From assembly GCF_026686735.1 (NCBI RefSeq), contig NZ_CP113432.1, positions 3,399,001 through 3,463,000 on the forward strand: a DNA stretch of 64,000 bases, in the 5' to 3' direction. This DNA comes from Pseudomonas triclosanedens (lineage in GTDB: Bacteria > Pseudomonadota > Gammaproteobacteria > Pseudomonadales > Pseudomonadaceae). This document shows, piece after piece, positions 33,060 through 39,309 of this stretch. The position numbers and the translations under genes were made by a program. Under the pieces are notes generated by a model. It was not told the origin of the DNA. It was given only the letters and a program-made list of their open reading frames with translations, and searched no databases. Position 1 is the stretch's first letter. Every line of letters begins with the position of its first letter.

Positions 33060-33184
33060 GGGGGCTCCGGAGCGACGGGAGAAGGTACGGTGGCGGTTGG
33101 ACCACACCGCTGCGCGATCATGCCATGCCGCCGGAAAAAAAGAGTACTGGCACCCGGCAGGAAGTTTCTGCTAGCGTGTGGCCC

Positions 33185-33247
33185 ATGAATGCCGCCAATC
33201 GCACCTTCCAGCAGATTATTACCACCATCACGCCGATGGTGGGTTAG
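33185..33247 (+). CDS. Leader peptide, Thr/Ile-rich, 20 codons
   Basis: MNAANRTFQQIITTITPMVG is encoded just before a terminator hairpin. Codons 11-16 are Ile-Ile-Thr-Thr-Ile-Thr, recalling the ITTT-rich thrL leader of enteric bacteria. No strong Shine-Dalgarno is visible. The Thr/Ile codons overlap one arm of a hairpin that excludes the antiterminator (see the attenuator entry). Genes downstream are not amino-acid biosynthetic, which is unexpected. Confidence 0.6.
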   Translation: MNAANRTFQQIITTITPMVG

Positions 33248-33291
33248 CGCATTTCCGCGAACAACCAAACCCGCCTCCCGGCGGGTTTTTT
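33221..33291 (+). promoter_or_regulatory. Attenuator-like set of alternative hairpins
   Basis: Four segments: 1 at 33222-33229 (in the Thr/Ile codons), 2 at 33235-33245 (end of leader), 3 at 33268-33275 and 4 at 33280-33287, followed by six T. Segments 1 and 2 pair over 8 bases, 2 and 3 over 8 with one G-U, and 3 and 4 over 8. A ribosome stalled on Thr/Ile codons would cover segment 1, free segment 2 to pair with 3 and prevent termination. Confidence 0.6.
33268..33291 (+). terminator. Rho-independent terminator within the leader
   Basis: AACCCGCC (33268-33275), loop TCCC, GGCGGGTT (33280-33287), then T to 33291. It lies 21 bases after the leader-peptide stop and 39 bases before the SnoaL-like start, so it would cut transcription before the operon. 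Confidence 0.8.
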
Positions 33292-33330: not shown

Positions 33331-33723
33331 ATGGACCAGGCAATCCACCCGTTGCAAGCGCTCATCCAGGCCGCCGACGAGGCTATCGGCCGCGAGGACT
33401 TCGACGCGCTAATCGACTTCTATAGCGACGACGCCCTGCTGGTGGTCAAGCCCGGCCTGCTGGCGCGTGGCAAGGCGCAGATCCGCCAGGCATTCATCGC
33501 CATCGCCGAACACTTCGGCCACGCCCTGCGGGTGCGCCAGGGCCGCCTGGAGATCCTCGAATCCGGCGACACCGCCCTGGTGGTCGCCCAGACCCTGCTG
33601 GACACCACCCACGGCAAGCTGACCCGCCGCGCCACCTACGTCTTCCGCCGCGAGGCCGATGGCGCCTGGCGCTGCGCAGTGGACAATTCCTATGGCACCG
33701 ACCTGCTGGAAGCGACGACATGA
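33331..33723 (+). CDS. SnoaL-like/DUF4440 small protein
   Basis: 130 residues with an NTF2-like cone fold: DEAIGREDFDALIDFYSDDALLVVKPG, a following IRQAFIAIAEHF helix and terminal strands (RRATYVFRREADGAWRCAVDNSYG). Such proteins are small hydrolases, isomerases or binding proteins; no catalytic set can be assigned. A GAGGAG ribosome site precedes the ATG. Its stop overlaps the next start (ATGA). It is the first gene after the Thr/Ile leader. Confidence 0.8.
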   Translation: MDQAIHPLQALIQAADEAIGREDFDALIDFYSDDALLVVKPGLLARGKAQIRQAFIAIAEHFGHALRVRQGRLEILESGDTALVVAQTLLDTTHGKLTRRATYVFRREADGAWRCAVDNSYGTDLLEATT

Positions 33724-34211
33724 CGACACACACAGGCACGCTGCACCTGCTGTGCGGCAAGGCGGCATCGGGCAAGTCCTGCCTGGCGAAGACGCTGGCG
33801 GAAGCGCCGGGCACGGTGCTGCTGGCCGAGGAGCAATGGCTGGTGGAGCTGTTCCCCTGGGGCATCAGCACAGCGGACGACTACCTGCTCTATGCCCGCC
33901 GCGTGCGCAAGGTGATGGGCCCCCATGTGGTGGGCCTGCTGCGCGCCGGCACCAGCGTGGTACTGGACATCCCCGCCAACACCCTGGCCGACCGCCGTTG
34001 GCTGATCGACCTGGCGGAACAGGCAGGTGCCCCGCATTGCCTGCATTTCCTCGATATCGACGCCGCCACCTGCCGCAATCGCCTGCTGGCACGACATGCC
34101 CTGGCACCACTGGCGGCGACGCTGGACCCGGCGGGCTACGAAGCGCTCAATCGCTACTTCGTCGCCCCCCGGCCCGAGGAAAGACTCCAGGTGCAGCGCC
34201 ATTGCGCCTGA
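33720..34211 (+). CDS. P-loop kinase-like protein
   Basis: 163 residues of the AAA_33/zeta-toxin-like kinase group. Walker A is GKAASGKS (13-20), and VVLDIPAN fits a Walker B-like strand. The fold suggests phosphorylation of a small molecule, for example an aminoglycoside-like or amino alcohol substrate; none can be named. It is coupled to the SnoaL-like gene by a four-base overlap, so the two products probably act together. Confidence 0.75.
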   Translation: MTTHTGTLHLLCGKAASGKSCLAKTLAEAPGTVLLAEEQWLVELFPWGISTADDYLLYARRVRKVMGPHVVGLLRAGTSVVLDIPANTLADRRWLIDLAEQAGAPHCLHFLDIDAATCRNRLLARHALAPLAATLDPAGYEALNRYFVAPRPEERLQVQRHCA

Positions 34212-34251
34212 TACGCGTAGAATCGCCGCCCCGACCGGAAAGACCCGAAGC

Positions 34252-35190
34252 ATGAATACCGACGCCATCGCCACCTTGCGCCAGCAACTGATCGACGCTC
34301 TCAACCCCGCTCCCGCGGAAGCCCGCCGCCTGTTCCACGGCCGCGGGCGCCGCTGGCCAGGGCTGGAGCAGTTGACCGCCGACTGGCTGCAAGGGGTGTT
34401 GCTGGTATCGTTGTTCCGCGAACCGGCGGCGGACGAGCTGGCCGCGCTCAAGGCCATGCTGACCGGGCTGACCGACAGCGAAACCTGGCGCGCCGCTGGC
34501 GCCCGCAGCCTGATGTTGCAGCACCGCTACGTACTGGAAAGCACCCTGGAAGTGCTGCACGGCGAAGAGCTGGACGGCTGGCAGATCAGCGAACACGACC
34601 TGCGCTACCAACTGGACCTGGGCCGCAAGCAGAACAGCGGGCTGTTCCTCGACATGCGCTACGGCCGCCAGTGGGTGCAGGCCAACGCCGGTGGCCTGCG
34701 GGTGCTCAACCTGTTCGCCTACACCTGCGGCTTCTCGGTGGCGGCCATCGCCGGCGGCGCGCAGAAAGTCGTCAACCTCGACATGGCCCGCGCCGCCCTT
34801 AGCCGTGGCCGCGACAACCACCGTCTAAATGGTCACGACCTGTCTCGGGTGAGCTTCCTCGACCACGACCTGTTCAAGTCCTGGGGGAAGGTGAAGAAGC
34901 ACGGTCCCTACGACCTGATCATCATCGACCCGCCGAGTTTCCAGAAGGGCAGCTTCGTCCTCGACAAGGACTATGCCCGCGTCCTCCGCCGCCTGCCGGA
35001 GTTACTTGAGGGGCGCGGCACCGTGCTGGCCTGCGTGAACGATCCGGCCGTCGGTGCCGACTTCCTCATCCAGGGTATGGCCACCGAGGCGCCGCAACTG
35101 CGCTTCGTCGAGCGCTTGGCCAACCCGCCGGAGTTCGCCGACATCGATGCGGACAGCGGCTTGAAGGCGCTGGTATTCCGGCTGGATTGA
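34252..35190 (+). CDS. RlmI-like SAM-dependent methyltransferase
   Basis: 312 residues. Motif I is VLNLFAYTCGFSVAA (151-165) and the catalytic DPPSF is at 226-230, the signature of 23S rRNA methyltransferases RlmI and RlmKL. It lacks the N-terminal PUA domain of RlmI, so the target base may differ. The ATG at 34252 follows GAAGC-type purines; the frame is open further upstream but homology starts here. It follows the kinase gene after 40 bases and may share the leader-controlled transcript. Confidence 0.8.
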   Translation: MNTDAIATLRQQLIDALNPAPAEARRLFHGRGRRWPGLEQLTADWLQGVLLVSLFREPAADELAALKAMLTGLTDSETWRAAGARSLMLQHRYVLESTLEVLHGEELDGWQISEHDLRYQLDLGRKQNSGLFLDMRYGRQWVQANAGGLRVLNLFAYTCGFSVAAIAGGAQKVVNLDMARAALSRGRDNHRLNGHDLSRVSFLDHDLFKSWGKVKKHGPYDLIIIDPPSFQKGSFVLDKDYARVLRRLPELLEGRGTVLACVNDPAVGADFLIQGMATEAPQLRFVERLANPPEFADIDADSGLKALVFRLD

Positions 35191-35356: not shown

Positions 35357-36997
35357 ATGCCCGCGCCGCTTGCCCCCAGCCTCTACTACCTGAGCAACTT
35401 CCACCGCGCCCTCGACTGGATCGACGAACGCTACGCCGACCTGCTCGACGCCGAAGAGGCAGCCTTCATCGCCGGCTTCCGCGAACTGCCGCTGCCGTCG
35501 CAGGCGCTGCTGGTGCGCCTGGCGATGCGCAAGGGGCCGCACTTTCGCGCCGGCAAGCTGAGCTATGCCGAAATCGGCGACATATCCGAAGCTGCCGCGC
35601 CACTGCTGGAGCTGGGCTGGCTGAGCGACTCTTATCCGCTGGCCCTGGACGAACTGCTGCCGCTGCTGCTCAAGGACGAACTCATCGCCCGCTTCCACGA
35701 TGACCTGCCGCGCGCCTCGCTGAAAAAGGCCGAGCTCTATGAACACCTGCACGCCTATCACGATCAGGTAAAGACCTTCGCCGGCTGGTACCCGGACCTC
35801 GACCGTCTCTACACCCTGATGGCGACACCACTGTGCGACCGCCTACGCCTGCTGTTCTTCGGCAACCTGCAGCAGGACTGGTCCGAATTCGTCCTCGCCG
35901 ATCTCGGCATCTTCCGTTACGAAAGCGTGCCCTTCACTGCCGACTCCCGCGCCTTCCGCTGCCGCGACGACCTGGAAACCTACATCCATCTGTGGAATGG
36001 CGCCGTGCGCTTCGAAGCGGGCGAACCCATCGCCGAACTGCTGGCCGAGCTGGGCGACTTGCGTACCGACAACCCCTACCTGCAAGCCCGCCACGGCCGT
36101 CTGCTGTACCGCATGGCCTACCAGTTGGAACGTGAGGGCGAGCTGGACGCCGCGCTGGCTCTGTATCGACGCACTGCCGCCGAGGGCTCGCGGCAGCGGC
36201 AGATTCGCGTACTGGAACGCCTGCAACGCTTCGACGAAGCCCACGCGCTGGTGCTGGCCGCGCTGGCCGCACCGGAAAGCGACGGCGAGCTGCAACTGGT
36301 GGAACGCGCGCGTACCCGGCTGGTCCGCCAGCTCGGCTTGCCAAAGGACAAACCCGGCAAGCCCACACCACCACTGCGCATCGACCTGGAACTGCCCCGC
36401 CCGGACTTCAACGTGGAGTTCGCGGTGCAGGCCGTGCTCCATGAAGACGCCGCGCCGGTCTACTACGTGGAGAACGCGCTCATCTGCAGCCTGTTCGGGC
36501 TGCTCTGCTGGGAAGTGATCTTCGCCCCGCTTCCCGGCGCCTTCTTCCACCCCTTCCAGGCCGGGCCGAGCGACCTCAACCGTGCCGACTTCGTCACCCG
36601 CCGCGCGGAAGGCTTCGCCGCGCGCCTAGCCCTGCTCGACGGCAACACCTATCGCGCGGCGATCCGTGACACCTATACCGCCAAGTCCGGCATTCTCTCG
36701 CCCTTCGTGCACTGGGAACTGCTCGATGAGAACCTGCTGGAGCAGGCCCTGCAGTGCCTGCCGGCAGCGCACCTGAAACTGTGGTTCGAACGCCTTCTGG
36801 CCGACCCGAAGGCCAACCGCGCCGGCATGCCCGACCTGATCCAGTTCTGGCCCGATGAGGCGCGTTACCGGATGATCGAGGTGAAAGGCCCCGGCGACCG
36901 CCTGCAGGACAACCAGAAGCGCTGGCTGGACTTCTGCGCCAAGCACGGCATGCCCGTGGAAGTCTGCTACGTGCGCTGGCAGGAGGAGCCCGCTTGA
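35357..36997 (+). CDS. FAN1-like VRR-NUC structure-specific nuclease
   Basis: 546 residues. The C-terminal VRR-NUC domain carries the PD-(D/E)xK triad: D493 in GMPDLIQF, E508 and K510 in IEVKGP, with the following QxxW (NQKRW). The N-terminal part contains a SAP-like and TPR-like helical region as in FAN1. FAN1 enzymes cut branched DNA and repair interstrand crosslinks; a P. aeruginosa homologue has been studied structurally. Its TGA overlaps the TTG start of a helicase-nuclease gene (TTGA), so both are co-translated. Confidence 0.9.
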   Translation: MPAPLAPSLYYLSNFHRALDWIDERYADLLDAEEAAFIAGFRELPLPSQALLVRLAMRKGPHFRAGKLSYAEIGDISEAAAPLLELGWLSDSYPLALDELLPLLLKDELIARFHDDLPRASLKKAELYEHLHAYHDQVKTFAGWYPDLDRLYTLMATPLCDRLRLLFFGNLQQDWSEFVLADLGIFRYESVPFTADSRAFRCRDDLETYIHLWNGAVRFEAGEPIAELLAELGDLRTDNPYLQARHGRLLYRMAYQLEREGELDAALALYRRTAAEGSRQRQIRVLERLQRFDEAHALVLAALAAPESDGELQLVERARTRLVRQLGLPKDKPGKPTPPLRIDLELPRPDFNVEFAVQAVLHEDAAPVYYVENALICSLFGLLCWEVIFAPLPGAFFHPFQAGPSDLNRADFVTRRAEGFAARLALLDGNTYRAAIRDTYTAKSGILSPFVHWELLDENLLEQALQCLPAAHLKLWFERLLADPKANRAGMPDLIQFWPDEARYRMIEVKGPGDRLQDNQKRWLDFCAKHGMPVEVCYVRWQEEPA

Positions 36998-39309
36998 GCT
37001 ACGCCATCGCCGTGCGCGCGCTATGCGAATTCACCGCCAAGGAAGGTGACCTCGACCTGCGCTTCACCCCCGCGCCCACCGCCCAGGAGGGCATGGCCGG
37101 GCACGCCACCGTGGTCTCCCGTCGTGGTCTGGGCTACATCGCCGAACTGCCGCTGCGTGGCGAGTATCCCGGGCTGGTGGTCAGCGGCCGCGCCGACGGC
37201 TACGACCCGAACGCCAACCTGCTGGAAGAGATCAAGACCCACCGCGGCGACGTCGCGCGCATCCCGCAGAACCACCGACTGCTGCACTGGGCGCAGGTGA
37301 AGGTATACGGCTGGCTGCTGTGCCAGACCCTGGAGATCGACGCCATCGACCTGGCCGTCGTCTACTTCAACGTCATCACCCAGAAGGAAACCGCGTTCCG
37401 CGAGCGTTTCGCCGCCGATGAGTTGCGGGCCTTCTTCGAGCTGCAATGCCAGCGCTTCGTGCAGTGGGCCGAGCAGGAAAGCGCCCATCGCGTCGAGCGC
37501 GACCAGGGCCTGGAAGCACTGCGCTTCCCCTATGCCGATTTCCGCCAGGGCCAGCGCATGCTCGCCGAGTCGGTGTACCGCGCCGCCCGCGACGGGCAGA
37601 CACTGATGGCCCAGGCCACCACCGGCATCGGCAAGACCCTCGGCACCCTGTTTCCGCAACTCAAGGCCTTCCCCAGCCAGGGCCTGGACCGATTGTTCTT
37701 CCTCACCGCCAAGACGCCTGGCCGGCGCCTGGCCCTGGACGCCTTGGCGACCCTGCGCCAGCAGCACGCCGCCCAGCCTCTGCGGGTGCTGGAGCACGTC
37801 GCCCGCGACAAGGCCTGCGAACACCCCGACAAAGCCTGCCACGGCGAATCCTGCCCTCTCGCCAAGGGCTTCTACGACCGCCTGCCCGCCGCCCGCGAGG
37901 CCGCGCTCAAGCAGCGCTGGCTGACCCAGGAAGCGGTGCGCAACGTGGCGCTGGAGCACCAGGTCTGCCCTTACTACCTGAGCCAGGAACTGTGCCGCTG
38001 GGCCGATGTGGTGGTGGGCGACTACAACTACTACTTCGACATGACCGCCCTGCTCTACGGACTCACCGTGCTCAACGACTGGAAGGTCACACTGCTGGTG
38101 GACGAAGCGCACAACCTCATCGAGCGAGCCCGTGGCATGTACAGCGCCGAGCTGGACCAGGGCGAGTTCAACGCGCTGCGCAAGGTCGCCCCGGCCAAGC
38201 TGAAAAGCGCGCTGGAACGCGTCGGCCGCCACTGGAACCAACTGCACCAGGACCAGGACACGCAGTACCAGATCTACCCGACCATTCCAGACCTGTTCAT
38301 CGCCGCATTGCAGAAGGCCGTCAGCGCCATCACCGACCACCTCACCGACCAGCCCACCGGCAACGAGGCCGAGTTGCTGCGCTTCTACCTCGACGCCATG
38401 CTGTTCTGCCGGCTGGCCGAGGCCTACGGGCCGCACTCGCTGTTCGACATCACCCGCCACGACGTCAGCGCGCGTCGCGTACTCTCGACCCTGTGCCTGC
38501 GCAACGTGGTGCCAGCGCCGTTCCTCGCCGAGCGCTTCAAGGTGGCGCACAGCACCACGCTGTTCTCCGCCACCCTGACTCCGGCACACTACTACGCCGA
38601 CCTGCTCGGCCTGCCGGAAGGCACAGCCTGGCGCGAGGTGGAGTCACCGTTCCACGCCGAGCAACTGAACGTCCACGCGCTGAGCAACCTGTCCACCCGC
38701 TACCAGCACCGGGAAGCCAGCCTCACACCGATCAGCACCCTCATGGCCCGGCAGTTCCGCGCCCGCCCCGGCAACTACCTGGCCTTCTTCAGCAGCTACG
38801 CCTACCTGCAGCAGGCGCTGGAGCGTTTCCTCGCCGAGCACCCGGACATCCCGCACTGGGCGCAGTCGCGCAGCATGAACGAACTGGAGCGCCAGGCTTT
38901 CCTCGACCGCTTCACCCCGAACTCGCGCGGCATCGGTTTCGCCGTGCTCGGCGGCGCCTTCGGCGAAGGCATCGACCTGCCCGGCGACCGCCTGATCGGC
39001 GCCTTCATCGCCACGCTCGGGCTGCCGCAGGTGAACGAGGTCAACGAGGAGATCAAGCAACGCATGCAGGCGATGTTCGGCGACGGCTACGACTACACCT
39101 ACCTGTTCCCCGGCCTGCAGAAGGTCGTCCAGGCGGCCGGACGGGTGATCCGCACGCCAACCGACCAGGGGGTGATCTACCTGCTTGACGACCGTTTCAA
39201 CCAGCCGGCCGTACGCCGCTTGCTACCGGGATGGTGGCAGCCGGAACGGCTGAAGTTCATCGCCGACCCACCGGGAGCGAAGGCGCCGCAGGGATATTTG
39301 CTGTTGTAG
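36994..39309 (+). CDS. XPD/DinG-like iron-sulfur helicase with N-terminal nuclease domain
   Basis: 771 residues. The N-terminus holds a Cas4/PDDEXK-like site (GRADGYD 65-71, EIKT 79-82). The helicase shows Walker A TTGIGKT (209-215), four conserved Cys (275, 287, 325, 334; C282 is extra) for a 4Fe-4S cluster as in XPD, and DEAH (370-373). The start is a TTG at 36994 with a strong AGGAGG ribosome site, overlapping the FAN1 stop. XPD-family helicases unwind 5'-3'. The pairing with FAN1 suggests crosslink repair. Confidence 0.85.
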   Translation: MSYAIAVRALCEFTAKEGDLDLRFTPAPTAQEGMAGHATVVSRRGLGYIAELPLRGEYPGLVVSGRADGYDPNANLLEEIKTHRGDVARIPQNHRLLHWAQVKVYGWLLCQTLEIDAIDLAVVYFNVITQKETAFRERFAADELRAFFELQCQRFVQWAEQESAHRVERDQGLEALRFPYADFRQGQRMLAESVYRAARDGQTLMAQATTGIGKTLGTLFPQLKAFPSQGLDRLFFLTAKTPGRRLALDALATLRQQHAAQPLRVLEHVARDKACEHPDKACHGESCPLAKGFYDRLPAAREAALKQRWLTQEAVRNVALEHQVCPYYLSQELCRWADVVVGDYNYYFDMTALLYGLTVLNDWKVTLLVDEAHNLIERARGMYSAELDQGEFNALRKVAPAKLKSALERVGRHWNQLHQDQDTQYQIYPTIPDLFIAALQKAVSAITDHLTDQPTGNEAELLRFYLDAMLFCRLAEAYGPHSLFDITRHDVSARRVLSTLCLRNVVPAPFLAERFKVAHSTTLFSATLTPAHYYADLLGLPEGTAWREVESPFHAEQLNVHALSNLSTRYQHREASLTPISTLMARQFRARPGNYLAFFSSYAYLQQALERFLAEHPDIPHWAQSRSMNELERQAFLDRFTPNSRGIGFAVLGGAFGEGIDLPGDRLIGAFIATLGLPQVNEVNEEIKQRMQAMFGDGYDYTYLFPGLQKVVQAAGRVIRTPTDQGVIYLLDDRFNQPAVRRLLPGWWQPERLKFIADPPGAKAPQGYLLL

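Follow-up and report, generated by a model that had tools for sequence, protein, structure and literature searches.

An isoleucine-codon leader of the Rfam P9 family as a probable transcription attenuator ahead of a SnoaL-like gene and a P-loop kinase gene in Pseudomonas

The enterobacterial thr and ilv operons are preceded by leaders that combine a short peptide bearing control codons with mutually exclusive RNA helices and a Rho-independent terminator. In Corynebacterium glutamicum, transcription of ilvBNC begins one nucleotide off the leader start codon (PMC11857589). Here we describe a locus in a 64,000-nucleotide stretch of Pseudomonas triclosanedens DNA (the window), in which positions 33185-33291 of the forward strand form what sequence comparison indicates, with a probability of about 85%, to be an isoleucine-responsive transcription attenuator of the P9 family, shared with ilvA and here controlling a SnoaL-like gene and a P-loop kinase gene (kinB). 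The locus resembles the enterobacterial leaders and the ilvBNC leader in its control codons, exclusive helices and putative Rho-independent terminator, and its RNA, as in C. glutamicum, would start next to the leader start codon (PMC11857589). It is unlike all of them in the genes that lie behind it.

The leader frame opens with an ATG at 33185-33187 and runs through 20 codons to a TAG stop at 33245-33247, encoding the peptide MNAANRTFQQIITTITPMVG (33185-33247), with Ile11 and Ile12 as candidate control codons. No Shine-Dalgarno sequence is seen ahead of this ATG. A first-pass annotation of this DNA had drawn attention to the run Ile-Ile-Thr-Thr-Ile-Thr at codons 11-16 and to three alternative pairings, and both are present as described. 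Segment 1, CCACCATC (33222-33229), pairs with segment 2 in the form GATGGTGG (33235-33242) at -12.3 kcal/mol (helix 1:2); the overlapping segment 2 stretch GGTGGGTT (33238-33245) is the antiterminator partner of segment 3, AACCCGCC (33268-33275), in a helix 2:3 with one G-U pair (-13.4 kcal/mol with an inner hairpin); and segment 3 pairs with segment 4, GGCGGGTT (33280-33287), at -14.1 kcal/mol (helix 3:4). Segment 4 and the T run at 33286-33291 would together make up the terminator (33280-33291). The six T said to follow the stem do exist, but the first two sit within it, so that the free U tract is just 3-4 long, and a strict terminator scan of the leader region reported nothing despite the strong 3:4 hairpin. 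The leader folds with a z-score of -2.7, 2 of 200 shuffles being equally or more stable, and a loose DNA pattern of the element matches the window once, against a mean of 0.00 in 100 shuffles.

Comparison with relatives, which the first-pass annotation had suggested as a check, found leader codons and stems conserved, with peptide and stems kept in all 16 genomes of the window's leader class (class B, below), one of which is the window's own, among 25 genomes of the genus. The helices are also covarying, in keeping with the exclusive-helix logic of thr/ilv-type attenuation that had been proposed. Covariation was assessed over 88 distinct leaders, in an alignment fitted to helices 1:2 and 3:4, a choice that favours these two and not 2:3. 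The share of cells in which the helix forms is 93.2% for 1:2 and 98.6% for 3:4, against 38-54% for the two together in slid controls. Changes on both sides occur at four pairs of 1:2 and two of 3:4; one pair of 1:2 is A-U in 51 leaders and G-C in 36, and one of 3:4 is G-C in 72 and A-U in 16. The antiterminator 2:3 forms in 90.8% of cells (slid controls, 39-56%). Five of its inner pairs are invariant and therefore uninformative, its variable inner pair, which shares the columns just mentioned, is paired in 88 of 88 leaders (C-G 36, U-G 36, U-A 16), and its two outer pairs do not form in 49 and 16 of the 88. For 1:2 with 3:4 and for 2:3 alike, the number of cells with both-side changes and the covariation score were reached by none of 500 shuffles. 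Counts of pairs and of pair types for 1:2 with 3:4 were reached by 1 and 13 of 500, and for 2:3 two of the five measures can be reproduced by shuffling (77 and 169 of 500). An alignment of 21 leaders gave the same picture, more weakly.

The position of the control codons was modelled by masking the ribosome footprint codon by codon and folding the RNA only up to segment 3. The antiterminator had a probability of 0.88-0.97 when any of codons 10-13 (Gln, Ile, Ile, Thr) occupied the A site, falling to 0.27 at codon 14, 0.35 at codon 15 and 0 from codon 16 on; in this model, a ribosome at the control codons frees the antiterminator and one at the stop codon does not. When the terminator has been made, helix 3:4 wins in the equilibrium fold at every ribosome position, so the switch requires co-transcriptional timing. 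The Thr/Ile character ascribed to the leader thus survives in part: Ile11 and Ile12 appear to exert control, with Gln10 and Thr13 at the edges of the effective stretch, but Thr14, Ile15 and Thr16 have little or no effect in the model. Codons were counted over 88 of 89 leaders, one without an ATG (L136) being dropped. Of the 785 effective codons 275 encode isoleucine, as do 64 of the 861 others, a 4.7-fold enrichment that is inflated because the search models (R1 and R2, below) and the pattern hold ATT-like columns and so partly select for Ile codons; isoleucine occupies an effective codon in 88 of 88 modelled leaders. The ilvA and isoleucyl-tRNA synthetase (IleRS) genes found behind such leaders point to isoleucine independently of codon counts, and the signal is most likely isoleucine rather than threonine. 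Some leaders are poorer in isoleucine: that of L264 has a single Ile (LMISPLP), and three kinB leaders from another class of the phylum (L237, L254 and L256, family f112; RIFTA.HR.AG) have one Ile plus Phe, His and Arg, and may respond to a different signal.

Translation of the leader peptide probably begins at the extreme 5' end of its RNA. In the window, a promoter-like sequence (33147-33177, forward strand), whose position matches that in relatives, would consist of a weak -35 element CTGGCA (33147-33152) and an extended -10-like element TGCTAGCGT; the -10-like hexamer TAGCGT (33172-33177) lies 7 nt upstream of the leader ATG. A strict promoter scan at the window leader found none, and throughout the window's clade the -35 is degenerate and the promoter weaker than in relatives. 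Relative to the ATG, 61 of 88 leaders have a TTGAC between -50 and -28, with 2.0 expected from composition, and in 60 of those 61 it falls between -41 and -34. Downstream of it, the best -10-like hexamer ends 6-9 bases upstream of the ATG in 56 of the 61, these hexamers having mostly 3 or 4 of 6 matches and a position that partly follows from the fixed -35. Words resembling a Shine-Dalgarno sequence are found in 11 of 88 leaders, a count that carries no chance value. The spacing of TTGAC and the -10-like hexamer to the ATG would place the RNA start at or beside the leader ATG.

From these features we infer leader translation, termination, read-through and the signal in vivo as follows. Transcription would start at or beside the leader ATG. 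With ample charged tRNA-Ile the ribosome would reach the stop codon and cover segment 2, allowing the 3:4 terminator to form and leaving a short transcript that would look like a small RNA. With tRNA-Ile uncharged, the ribosome would stall at Ile11/Ile12 and cover segment 1, 2:3 would pair, and transcription would continue into the SnoaL-like gene and kinB.

The window matches the Rfam family RF00624 (P9) at 33212-33289 on the forward strand with 56.3 bits, against a cut-off of 43. Rfam files P9 as a Pseudomonas sRNA of type 'Gene'; the element is the same, and here a cis-acting isoleucine leader is favoured over a small RNA gene. P9 also passes its curated cut-off in 7 of 10 further loci, ahead of ilvA (L113, L116, L192), kinB (L138), SnoaL-like genes (L182, L185) and a SnoaL-kinB pair (L139), and misses it in Serratia L179, Vibrio L131 and L321, so the leader family is broader than P9. 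The Rfam threonine operon leader was also considered and gave no match in the window, where only RF00624 and RF01695 were reported. P9 goes back to a founding paper, and there is an older survey of proteobacterial attenuators. In the open-access literature, including the available portions of PMC2965389, PMC9239102 and PMC7822408, no paper presenting P9 as an isoleucine leader was found. The suggestion of an amino-acid-responsive operon not yet described holds for an attenuator ahead of genes without a known biosynthetic role, but the element itself already stands in Rfam.

Of 56 relatives, 30 have a match to RF00624, which exceeds the cut-off in 28, and reading the 30 loci gave three classes of leader. 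Class A (..IITAI..; L001-L010) stands before ilvA, directly or after a SnoaL-like gene; class B, the window's kind, MNAANRTFQ[QP]IITTI[TAV]PMVG, before SnoaL and the AAA_33 kinase gene kinB; and class C (RIIIIP and similar) before kinC, which encodes a different P-loop kinase. One match under the Rfam cut-off (L030) is not an Ile leader. Among the 25 genus genomes, 16 have a class-B leader with SnoaL and kinB and one ilvA, with no second ilvA; seven have a class-A leader with ilvA2, hence two ilvA genes, and no kinB; and two have one ilvA and no leader, kinB or SnoaL. Compared with the class-A ilvA2 leader of other Pseudomonas, the window's leader shows no difference in helices or Ile codons; the gene that comes next is SnoaL in five of the seven class-A genomes, and ilvA2 stands there in the place of kinB. 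In one class-A locus (L004) SnoaL and ilvA overlap by ATGA. The window's genome has a single ilvA, far from the leader, near which neither P9 nor R1 gives a match. The leader is not universal in Pseudomonas; in several genomes belonging to the same family the order scan gave no match. In trees, the class-B copies of kinB form one clade and those of SnoaL another, which fits both a replacement of ilvA2 and the acquisition of a ready-made cassette. On the kinB tree the leader label changes 4 times, against a shuffled mean of 10.9 and with none of 500 shuffles as low, a result given little weight because three rows (L138, L179, L315) were included for bearing a leader, close copies favour clustering and the bootstrap is not settled.

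The DNA pattern was run over one genome per species, and the genes behind the leader were identified by translated comparison with reference proteins; the at least 120 stretches obtained are a sample, mostly Pseudomonas. Among the 120 matches listed, the leader is followed by IlvA in at least 74 (70 Pseudomonas, two Achromobacter, Amphritea, Bordetella), by SnoaL and IlvA in at least 2, by kinC in at least 22, by SnoaL alone in at least 5 (Sulfuriferula, Neorhizobium, Peteryoungia, Hankyongella, Rhizobium), by kinB in at least 3 (Achromobacter, Serratia, Duganella) and by SnoaL and kinB in at least 1 (P. nitroreducens); six have fewer than 350 bases left and seven precede other genes. Five of these seven, from phyla outside Proteobacteria, were dismissed as chance matches, three lacking a leader frame and two having an Ile-holding frame unlike that of these leaders. 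The other two, from Marinomonas, have a class-C-like leader before a gene for a 1057-amino-acid IleRS (3800-6973 of L203 and 2485-5658 of L229). These tallies assign 109 of 114 assessable stretches among the matches listed to five gene families. One of the two Marinomonas IleRS was searched and has cytoplasmic IleRS as its best PDB matches; Marinomonas IleRS passes the TIGR00392 cut-off, with the MupA and MupB models far below theirs. The kinC genes that follow RIIIIP-like leaders, among others in Vibrio, Endozoicomonas, Pseudoalteromonas and Nitrincola (for example L027, L131, L134, L166, L170), resemble the 'DNA topology modulation protein' family yet fall below its cut-offs.

A second sample came from search models. 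At E 0.001, R1, built on 21 leaders, gave matches, many of them weak, in 63 of 390 genomes from the order, and R2, built on 89, matched 60 of 398 genomes of the phylum at E 0.0001. The best 32 R2 matches (E 5e-7 or better) precede IlvA in 7 cases, kinC in 8, kinB in 7, SnoaL and kinB in 4, SnoaL in 4, a ThrA-like protein in 1 and an unrelated gene in 1, with L310 and L321 identified by eye from the N-terminal part of the protein; since R2 was partly trained on the same loci, only the gene association is informative there, not detection. In L321 the leader MTIITICSVAG stands before what is, by eye, an aspartokinase/homoserine dehydrogenase-like protein, a link to threonine operon leaders. Weak model matches L093-L098 and the stronger L323 were rejected as Ile leaders. 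In a reverse test, kinB and SnoaL loci from outside the genus were collected through protein similarity and scanned with R1. A leader lies directly upstream of kinB in 6 of 26 loci (E <1e-7; L237, L239, L242, L254, L256, L258), with a weak but plausible one at L248 (E 0.002), and of SnoaL in 5 of 26 (L264, L266, L275, L276, L277), two of the 26 being pieces of one gene. At the thresholds used, no leader was found at 20 of the 26 kinB loci or at 21 of the 26 SnoaL loci, among which are all those of SnoaL family f53, and L271 has a weak match downstream, not upstream, of its gene. Two genomes each hold two leaders, before ilvA and kinB in one (G712; L310, L258) and before ilvA and SnoaL in the other (G242; L050, L266). 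Judged by sequence, the same leader is found before ilvA in many Pseudomonas, before IleRS in two Marinomonas, and before SnoaL, kinB and kinC in alpha-, beta- and gammaproteobacteria.

In the window the leader is followed, on the same strand, by a gene for a SnoaL_3/DUF4440 protein (33331-33723), a relative of YybH that matches 2gxf (B. subtilis YybH) at 7e-40, and its stop codon overlaps (ATGA) the start of kinB (33720-34211), which encodes an AAA_33 P-loop kinase of 163 amino acids. An attenuator ahead of genes not known in biosynthesis, as the first-pass annotation had it, is what was found, and since kin of the element precede ilvA the leader is not foreign to isoleucine synthesis. KinB has 159 relatives, the named ones among 120 listed being mostly predicted kinases or AAA family ATPases, with invariant P-loop, E..W, D..NT and R..R residues. 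Its structure model (pLDDT 90) has a PNKP-, gluconate- and APS-kinase-like fold. A substrate was sought from the fold among the PNKP 5'-kinase domain and the gluconate, APS and O-phosphoseryl-tRNA kinases, which at 11-20% identity are not decisive.

The RlmI-like Methyltrans_SAM gene that follows (34252-35190, forward strand) had been counted in the operon, and this did not hold up: it is an old neighbour and has a -10-like element of its own, so that the attenuated unit is SnoaL-kinB. The probable -10 of the methyltransferase gene, TAGAAT (34218-34223, forward strand), would mark the boundary of the unit. The gene is present in 12 of 12 genus genomes tested and in nine of them lies elsewhere, without SnoaL-kinB; AGAAT is seen by eye upstream of all nine of these copies, and SnoaL, kinB and FAN1 were not found within 1.5 kb on either side of them in these non-class-B genomes. 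It probably has its own promoter. Further downstream, a gene for a FAN1-type nuclease (VRR_NUC, FAN1_HTH; 35357-36997) overlaps one for a DEAD_2/Helicase_C_2 helicase (36994-39309). FAN1 and the DinG-like helicase, considered as further targets of the leader, follow kinB in the window and in Achromobacter L138, but behind the kinase of Serratia L179 and that of Duganella L188 a FAN1 match was lacking. PADLOC, run on six proteins in search of defence genes, returned only a DinG-type and one methyltransferase-domain match. A C4 antisense RNA (RF01695; 39445-39527, forward strand, 58 bits) lies directly behind the helicase gene. Divergent from the leader, on the reverse strand, is a gene for an eCIS core domain protein (PF13699; 32430-33062), present in 4 of 4 class-B relatives compared.

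Other readings of the element deserve weighing. That P9 acts in trans as a small RNA, with an incidental leader frame, is extremely improbable: its Rfam type would suit this, as would a short terminated transcript, expected either way, whereas the covariation supports three mutually exclusive helices, the Ile codons sit at positions at which a stalled ribosome makes a difference, and only a limited set of genes is found behind the element. Class-B genomes lack a second ilvA, and the window's kind has a promoter weaker than that of relatives, as might be expected of a relic of a lost ilvA operon that is now without effect; peptide and stems are nevertheless intact in every class-B genome, and kinB and SnoaL also have Ile leaders in unrelated genera, which leaves a relic very improbable. 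The case for threonine as the signal, alone or jointly with isoleucine, is stronger, and we still consider it improbable. Thr13 lies within the effective stretch of the window leader, Thr fills 101 of 785 effective codons and 74 of 861 others (1.5-fold) and occupies an effective codon in 68 of 88 leaders, and one related match (L321) stands ahead of a ThrA-like protein; yet many class-C control stretches (RIIIIP) are without Thr, the enrichment of Ile is much the larger, and Thr14 and Thr16 fall outside the effective stretch.

An isoleucine-responsive attenuator remains the preferred reading, and its presence before SnoaL-kinB here and before isoleucine genes in relatives ties these uncharacterised genes to isoleucine shortage. 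SnoaL and kinB recur with Ile leaders, ilvA and IleRS, and would thus matter when charged tRNA-Ile is scarce. We tentatively suggest, at somewhat less than even odds, that they serve the threonine-to-isoleucine branch or deal with its side products under isoleucine shortage. We rank this role first and a response to poisoned IleRS second. In the latter, rather unlikely case the RNA mechanism would be the same, the signal would be IleRS poisoned by an inhibitor or by an isoleucine or threonine analogue, and the genes would be protective. Second-type IleRS is often mupirocin-resistant, and the two Marinomonas leaders precede IleRS, the one searched resembling the cytoplasmic type; the fold and profile of KinB are those of small-substrate and polynucleotide kinases, one of its relatives has a weak match, below cut-off, to a chloramphenicol phosphotransferase model, and the distribution is patchy (52 of 398 genomes). 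Against this, ilvA lies behind most leaders (at least 76 of the 120 matches listed), and control of IleRS by its own tRNA is ordinary feedback. In its widest form, which we regard as unlikely, one switch sensing tRNA-Ile charging, masked until now by its filing as a small RNA, would govern a dispersed response made up of ilvA, second-type IleRS, YybH-like SnoaL, kinB and kinC in alpha-, beta- and gammaproteobacteria, and the kinases would modify a small molecule that threatens isoleucine charging or accumulates when isoleucine fails, amounting to an induced response to compounds that poison IleRS or to toxic amino-acid analogues.

With the isoleucine attenuator as the favoured reading, the Rfam entry P9, filed as a small RNA, would gain a testable function, and, if the leader peptides are indeed leaderless, many proteobacterial cases would be added to the description from Corynebacterium. 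In Pseudomonas, the leader may also provide a ready-made reporter of tRNA-Ile charging. Finally, three uncharacterised protein families would be linked to isoleucine shortage by a genetic argument that is independent of homology.
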